From positions 1-37,404 of IMG/VR virus record IMGVR_UViG_3300025697_000069: DNA of 37,404 nt. One strand, given 5' to 3'. Both the position numbers and the translations under genes were made by a program. Shown in pieces: positions 31,455-32,589 of the stretch (positions within the stretch are counted from its first letter, which is position 1; every line of letters starts with the position of its first letter). This stretch comes from a virus. Under the pieces are notes generated by a model. That model had not been told where the DNA came from. It searched no databases and was given only the letters and a program-made list of their open reading frames with translations.

Positions 31455-31650
31455 TCACACAAAGAGATGGGAAAGATGCAGAATAGATGAAAACAAATTA
31501 GTATCTGACGAGAAAAAGAAACTAATTGTTGGACTGTTTAAAGATGACCCTAAGAGATACCATAAGGCTAGATTGGGGCGTATCTTCTCAGTTGAGAGAG
31601 AATATGTAGGGCAACTCATTAAGGCTGTGGATAAGTCGCTTGACAAATAA
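31447..31650 (+). CDS. Small HTH-like regulator
   Basis: The 67-residue product has DEKKKLIVGLFKDD followed by KRYHKARLGRIFSVEREYVGQLIKAV, a helix-turn-helix-like pattern. The last five codons plus the stop read TCGCTTGACAAATAA (encoding SLDK), identical to the end of the gene at 22978, and form the -35 box of the next promoter. It may regulate that promoter; this is inference. Confidence 0.55.
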   Translation: MNNHTKRWERCRIDENKLVSDEKKKLIVGLFKDDPKRYHKARLGRIFSVEREYVGQLIKAVDKSLDK

Positions 31651-31668
31651 ATAGTATGGGTGTATACT
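31639..31668 (+). promoter_or_regulatory. Strong promoter with CTTGACAAATAA box
   Basis: TTGACA at 31640-31645, a 17-nt spacer and TATACT at 31663-31668. The -35 box is inside the last codons of the HTH-like gene. Transcription from here would make the structured RNA next described. Confidence 0.8.
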
Positions 31669-31674
31669 GTATAC

Positions 31675-31994
31675 AGGTAAATAGAAACAGCTAGATTTCA
31701 AATCAGCGAACTATAAGCCTAATAGGGTGAGGGTGAACATTAAAAATTATATACATAGTTATCGAAGCCACTTATCTCTACAGGAGATTGCAATCAAATG
31801 TAGGAGGGCGAATTGACGCCAGATGATAGATTCCTAGAAATATATAGCAAACACTAGCTCGAGTGGTGGGAGTTGAGGATAGAAGTAATCCTTCAAAAGT
31901 AGGCTCTCGAAAGTATTTCCCCGAGTGTTGGTAGGGTGCTGGAAGGCATAGAATCCAATGCTTCTGCTGTTGGCTTCGGAAGCTATGTATATAA
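31675..31994 (+). ncRNA. Large structured non-coding RNA closed by a 24-position helix
   Basis: From the promoter to the next gene (about 350 nt) there is no plausible gene. TTATATACATAG and on to CCA (31747-31770) pairs with its partner at 31971-31994: 23 of 24 positions pair (one A-A mismatch, two G-U). Inside are ATCTC/GAGAT (31774-31778/31784-31788), GGCG/CGCC (31807-31810/31817-31820), AGGAT/ATCCT (31876-31880/31888-31892), CTCG/CGAG or AACACT/AGTGTT as alternatives, and GAAGGCAT/ATGCTTC (31942-31949/31958-31964). The body is more GC-rich than its surroundings. It matches no class I recognise, and I see no group I intron, tmRNA or RNase P signature. Confidence 0.7.
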
Positions 31995-32029
31995 TATGGG
32001 TGAAAACCTTAACTAATAAAAACAAAAAG

Positions 32030-32589
32030 ATGGAAAACATCAACAATGTGCCAAAAGCACAAAAGAAAACAAAAAAGAAATCAGGAAATTTAAAAGTAAT
32101 CAGTCTAGTTGTACTAGGTGCGATTATAGGATGTAGTTATCTCTACGCCTATCAAACTTATGTAGAGCTATCAGGTTTTATTCAATAGTCGGTGGTGTTG
32201 TCTCTAACGAGGCTTCTAAACAGGACACTTCTGAGAACACTGATGTTGGAGTTTCGCAAGATTCTCCAACACAGACTCAGGAGGAAACAGTTGAAAATAC
32301 AATTAAAAGAGTAGCAAAAGAAAAGAACTTTGAAGATGTAGATTTACTTTTACGAATAGCAAAGTGTGAAAGCACATTCAGAGCGTGTGCAAAAAATCCT
32401 AATTCAAGTGCAACAGGGACATTTCAATATCTAATTGGAACTTGGAACGAAGGTGTTAGAATTAGAGGATTAGATTGGACACCAGAAGATAGATGCGACC
32501 CTGAAAAAGCAACTGATATGATTATATGGCACATCAATAGAGGAAATATAAGTAAATGGAATGAATCTAAATTTTGTTGGAATAAATAA
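32030..32589 (+). CDS. Membrane-anchored lysozyme/transglycosylase, requires a -1 frameshift
   Basis: ATG 32030 opens a frame with a basic head, a membrane span at about 22-41 (KVISLVVLGAIIGCSYLYAY) and stops at 32186-32188 after 52 codons. In the -1 frame, reading on from TTTT at 32176-32179, the sequence continues YSIVGGVVSNEASKQD, a disordered linker, and then a lytic transglycosylase-like domain: LLRIAKCESTFRACAKNPNS with catalytic Glu (about 114 of the 186-residue fusion), then TGTFQYLIGTWNEG. That second frame has no ATG, GTG or TTG start before the domain. A shift or an extra T would make a signal-anchored cell-wall hydrolase with the domain outside. Either programmed frameshifting, a real mutation, or a homopolymer sequencing error explains it. 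Confidence 0.6.
32176..32179 (+). other. TTTT slip site between membrane anchor and lysozyme domain
   Basis: The run TTTT (codon GGT TTT ATT in frame 0) lets a Phe tRNA move back one base onto another TTT. The downstream hairpin TGTTGGAG/CTCCAACA lies about 60 nt further, not at the usual 5-9 nt, so the site is not a textbook programmed signal. Confidence 0.35.

Follow-up and report, generated by a model that had tools for sequence, protein, structure and literature searches.

An inverted-repeat segment upstream of a phage lysis gene

Positions 31746-31995 of the window, which is the 37,404-nt IMG/VR virus record analysed here over its whole length, may well represent a lineage-specific, noncoding DNA insert of ~250 bp that carries 25-bp imperfect inverted repeats, is MITE-like (non-autonomous) and lies in the transcribed leader of a lysis gene. 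This is the best supported reading, which we hold with modest confidence because other copies are missing, multiple copies at unrelated sites being the usual proof of a MITE. It is favoured by the empty sites in relatives, the terminal inverted repeats (TIRs), the terminal TA, the outlying GC content and an excess of folding that is confined to the arms on both strands. The inverted-repeat segment is real as a sequence feature; in its make-up it resembles a mobile element that arrived in the leader, and it would be transcribed as part of that leader from the predicted promoter.

The genes of the record include those for a phage terminase, a capsid protein, a RusA-like resolvase, a YopX-like protein and a transglycosylase, and the GC content of the phage is 35%. 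A search with the terminase yielded 80 viral relatives and a few matches in metagenome-assembled genomes (MAGs), and since one of the latter is labelled Candidatus Nomurabacteria, a host from the Patescibacteria is possible for this phage. The lysis gene is kept in four relatives, L002, L008, L009 and L010. The features of the locus are the following.

31640-31668, + strand: sigma-70-type promoter TTGACA-17-TATACT, 11/12 consensus match (promoter scan; equivalent in L002, L008, L009 and L010)
31661-31675, no strand assigned: 15-bp palindrome TGTATACTGTATACA, perfect and operator-like, overlapping the -10 box (exact match nowhere else in the window; L008 conserves it)
31675-31720, + strand: 5' leader hairpin of 15 pairs (z -2.82; L008 counterpart z -3.22)
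31746-31770, + strand: left arm of the TIR, 5' strand of the closing helix (repeat search, folding)
31771-31970, + strand: insert interior, noncoding, 44% GC, no excess structure (folding against shuffles, GC scan)
31971-31995, + strand: right arm of the TIR, 3' strand of the closing helix (repeat search, folding)
31996-32029, + strand: native 3' leader, A-rich translation start region common to relatives (L002 leader alignment)
32030-32188, + strand: first lysis-gene ORF, 52 aa, one transmembrane-like stretch, ending in TAG (ORF list, comparison)
32182-32589, + strand: lysozyme (SLT) domain in the -1 frame, no ATG, GTG or TTG start at its head (Pfam SLT, E 1.3e-4; PHROG transglycosylase)

The arms TTATATACATAGTTATCGAAGCCA (31747-31770) and TGGCTTCGGAAGCTATGTATATAA (31971-31994) pair at 21/24 positions by Watson-Crick rules and at 23/24 when two G-U pairs are included, leaving a single A.A mismatch, so that the closing helix of 23 out of 24 positions described in the initial annotation is confirmed. 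Repeat finding lengthens the arms to 31746-31770 and 31971-31995, which are 88% complementary and separated by a 200-nt spacer. This is the sole 24-mer inverted repeat with at least 20/24 pairs within 400 nt in the whole window and the best of its kind there. Among first-order Markov genomes with the same dinucleotide make-up, 21/24 was reached in 2/160 runs (and in 0/60 of another set), which corresponds to a window-wide p of ~0.01. Related phage loci, amounting to ~1 Mb, contain six sites with 21-22/24 and spans of 80-412 nt, and the repeat is thus unusual rather than extraordinary. An unlikely explanation is that a repeat of this kind arose by chance in an ordinary leader whose sequence has diverged so far that relatives no longer show the similarity. 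The simulated genomes that reach 21/24, the several equally good repeats in related phage loci and a leader that is variable anyway are consistent with it; however, the repeat is the best of the window, lies at or near the edges of a non-homologous segment and encloses a stretch of outlying GC content.

The enclosed region was described as devoid of genes and we also find no plausible ORF on either strand. On the + strand, the ORFs inside the segment measure only 26-29 aa, and the 76-aa ATG frame from 31958 is a mere upstream extension of the lysis ORF; the 70-aa TTG frame on the - strand looks spurious. A tRNA search found no tRNA in the region. With 44% GC, the interior falls within the top 0.4% of the 200-nt windows of the phage.

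Promoter and lysis gene

The sigma-70 promoter claimed for 31640-31668 is borne out, with 11 of the 12 consensus positions matching. A 15-mer identical to the palindrome TGTATACTGTATACA over its -10 box is also found just after a short gene in two unrelated viral contigs, L127 and L128, which suggests a common operator type. The hairpin at 31675-31720 is formed by the 46 nt with which the predicted transcript begins. In L008, its pairing is kept through the changes U-A to G-C and U-G to U-A, and L002 has a similarly laid-out hairpin at the matching place. Comparison of these two to three sequences provides modest, suggestive support for a conserved 5' leader hairpin. A second leader hairpin of L002 is not convincingly kept in the window or in L008.

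The lysis gene is split into two frames that overlap in the conserved DNA TAGTCGGTGGTGTTGTCTCTAAC. We compared this split in the window (32030-32589), L002 (from 2843), L008 (from 1581), L009 (from 7513) and L010 (from 3488). The frame relation is identical in all relatives checked, though the lysozyme domain differs among them. Because the relation stays constant while the domains differ, a programmed -1 frameshift yielding a membrane-anchored lysozyme is likely.

Leader organization in related phages

In L002, L008, L009 and L010, a promoter starting with TTGACA lies upstream of the common start ACAAAAAGATGGAAAAC. L009 and L010 have a leader of 45 nt between this promoter and the lysis gene, against ~100 nt in L002 and ~480 nt in L008. 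The segment of the window is absent from all four of these relatives. In L008, two small ORFs (L008:1171-1536) stand in its place, downstream of the promoter and ahead of the lysis gene. Since relatives hold nothing or something else at this place, the segment occupies a slot, and the leader acts as an insertion slot that contains nothing, two small genes or this inverted-repeat segment, depending on the phage.

The boundaries of the segment were located by comparison with L008 and L002. The 90% match between L008 and the window breaks off at 31724 and is found again from 32018; the match to L002 resumes at 31997, directly outside the right arm. Thus, the right breakpoint coincides with the repeat end within two bases, whereas on the left the repeat end lies 22 nt inside the L008 breakpoint at 31724. 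The alignment of 31996-32029 to the L002 leader scores 54, a value reached in 0/2000 shuffles. Both flanks of the segment align to one empty-site stretch of L002, the right one with this score of 54 and the left one weakly, with gaps and a score of 28 (p ~0.006).

Folding of the segment

The initial annotation considered the 'density of specific pairing' here hard to ascribe to chance. Compared with shuffled sequences, the whole domain does fold better than expected (z -3.66 on the + strand), and the reverse complement does likewise (z -4.65). Without the arms, the interior 31771-31970 has a z of +0.10 on the + strand and -0.79 on the other, and 102/200 shuffles fold at least equally well. The pairing inside the helix is therefore no more than chance; the excess comes entirely from the inverted repeat, a feature that belongs to the DNA no less than to any RNA. 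According to the folding model, the pairs of the closing helix have probabilities of 0.78-1.00 in context, the mismatch aside, and a transcript of the segment would almost certainly adopt this helix. Such a helix, however long, is not enough to establish an RNA when homologues are lacking.

Rfam 15 covariance models found no family in the region, either at gathering or at E 10, and none in the relatives at gathering. An ornate, highly structured RNA is unsupported, given the interior that folds like its shuffles, the equally folded minus strand and the lack of an Rfam match; nothing points to a host-interfering RNA. Of the RNA reading as a whole, what stands is a noncoding region behind a strong promoter in the lysis leader, with a long helix if transcribed; the ornate RNA, the riboregulator and the host role are not supported. 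The large-RNA interpretation of the segment is possible but unsupported. One version of it is an orphan structured phage RNA, acting as a functional leader or a processed small RNA that would be abundant late in infection and have a host or phage target. Such an RNA is conceivable, if on the improbable side. It would accord with the strong promoter directly upstream, the GC content well above that of the genome (structured RNAs in AT-rich genomes are often GC-richer), the z of the whole domain and the fact that two of the three departures from a perfect Watson-Crick repeat are G-U pairs that keep the RNA helix. Arguments against it are the average folding of the interior, the equal folding of the reverse strand relative to shuffles, the empty Rfam result, the failure to find a homologue in the relatives or collections searched and the lack of a predicted terminator on the + strand. 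The bolder proposal of an orphan phage RNA class of ~250 nt, with a 24-position closing helix and its own strong promoter, carried as cargo between the lysis promoter and the lysis gene and serving a function in infection, appears decidedly improbable. If the segment were a functional RNA, it would constitute a new class.

Regulation of the lysozyme gene, also proposed initially, is very doubtful. A riboregulator would time translation or transcription of lysozyme through the structure of the leader, and the position in that leader, the operator-like palindrome over the promoter and the conserved 5' hairpin agree with such a role. However, 34 nt separate the closing helix from the start region, neither an alternative structure nor a + strand terminator was found, and the expression platform expected of a riboswitch or attenuator, be it a terminator or a sequestered start site, is thus not seen. 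The same gene also operates in four relatives that lack the segment.

Folded segments also occur elsewhere in the relatives. At L019:2495-2702, a different GC-rich inverted-repeat segment lies between genes and is strongly folded on the two strands (z -4.98 and -6.51). Most other GC-rich gaps in relatives fold no better than expected or have a coding-derived look. A structured noncoding stretch precedes seemingly coding sequence at L064:15364-15640; by eye it is reminiscent of group I introns, yet it matches no Rfam model.

Searches for copies and homologues

No second copy of the segment was found within this genome or in 40 related phage records, and the viral and genome collections searched did not reveal several copies either. 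DNA similarity searches of phages and plasmids gave nothing above chance; a match to a phiR1-37 terminator was rejected, having an E of 3 and covering the left arm only. In 380 genomes of the phylum of the possible host, DNA matches of 17-39 bp were spread over the query in a chance-like manner. Scans of viral and genome collections with the TIR pattern gave 20 one-armed matches in which the second arm reached at most 12/17, as expected by chance; many of them share a motif in seemingly coding stretches. An RNA covariance model (R1) was made from one sequence entered twice, so that its empty results say little on distant homologues. Only weak matches to it were obtained over the ~1 Mb of related loci and the 40 whole records, as well as in a few Patescibacteria-like MAGs and 287 genomes of that phylum, the best over all sets searched having an E of 0.05. 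Group I and II introns, retron RNA, tRNA-like RNA and omega-RNA were considered and dismissed, there being no Rfam match and no reverse transcriptase or TnpB-like protein among the proteins searched.

A possible origin as a MITE-like insert

The segment has several properties of MITEs. Its 25-nt arms, 88% complementary, form terminal inverted repeats, and it encodes no protein, with ORFs of 26-29 aa only (+ strand), its ~250 bp being somewhat long for the class. Palindromic TA is present at the termini (TTATATAC...GTATATAA), although the AT-rich flanks weaken its weight. The alignment of the flanks to the L002 empty site has the pattern that a target duplication would leave, the left side being weak and gapped. 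Against this origin, there is no clean target-site duplication around the insert, and the divergence of L008 sets in at 31724, 22 nt before the left arm begins. The segment also exceeds most bacterial MITEs in length and is GC-rich whereas they are A+T-rich. We know of no transposase with matching ends. Should the segment prove mobile, a phage would here be the carrier of a miniature element.

As a MITE-like insert, the segment would have entered the leader between the promoter and the lysis gene, and transcription from 31640-31668 would carry it within the 5' UTR of the lysis mRNA. A factor binding the palindrome over the -10 box probably controls this transcription. The leader RNA would then begin with the small hairpin, continue with the insert closed by pairing of its ends and finish in the A-rich, unstructured lysis start, with the long closing helix surrounding an interior predicted to fold like random RNA of the same composition. 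With the A-rich start region of the lysis gene retained 34 nt further on, any effect of the insert would be limited to adjusting the stability or spacing of the mRNA, for example if double-strand cleavage occurred in the long stem.

Comparison with known systems

Like the GOLLD and ROOL RNAs, the candidate is phage noncoding sequence near genes used in lysis (PMC12286853). Unlike them, it has no nearby tRNA and no Rfam match, no homologues were found that would show a conserved covarying structure, and it is a third or less of the length of GOLLD, many members of which exceed 800 nt (PMC12286853). The small hairpin at the predicted transcript start (31675-31720), whose pairing is kept in L008, is akin to phage 5' leader structures such as the stabilising hairpins of late mRNAs; in contrast to those structures, a large insert, absent from relatives, comes on top of it.

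Bacterial MITEs, mostly 100-200 bp long and described as A+T-rich, have terminal inverted repeats (24 bp in Correia elements), TA ends and transcripts whose 5' and 3' ends pair (PMC2229807). These transcripts can influence the mRNAs that carry them (PMC2229807), and double-strand cleavage has been proposed for NEMIS transcripts of Neisseria. Unlike Correia/NEMIS, RUP and ERIC, the segment is single-copy as far as searched, ~250 bp long, GC-richer than its genome and located in a phage, without a known parent transposase or a clean target-site duplication. With Correia/NEMIS (Neisseria), RUP and ERIC it shares its noncoding nature, terminal repeats of ~24 bp, TA ends, an intergenic leader position and an end-to-end fold of the predicted transcript (PMC2229807).
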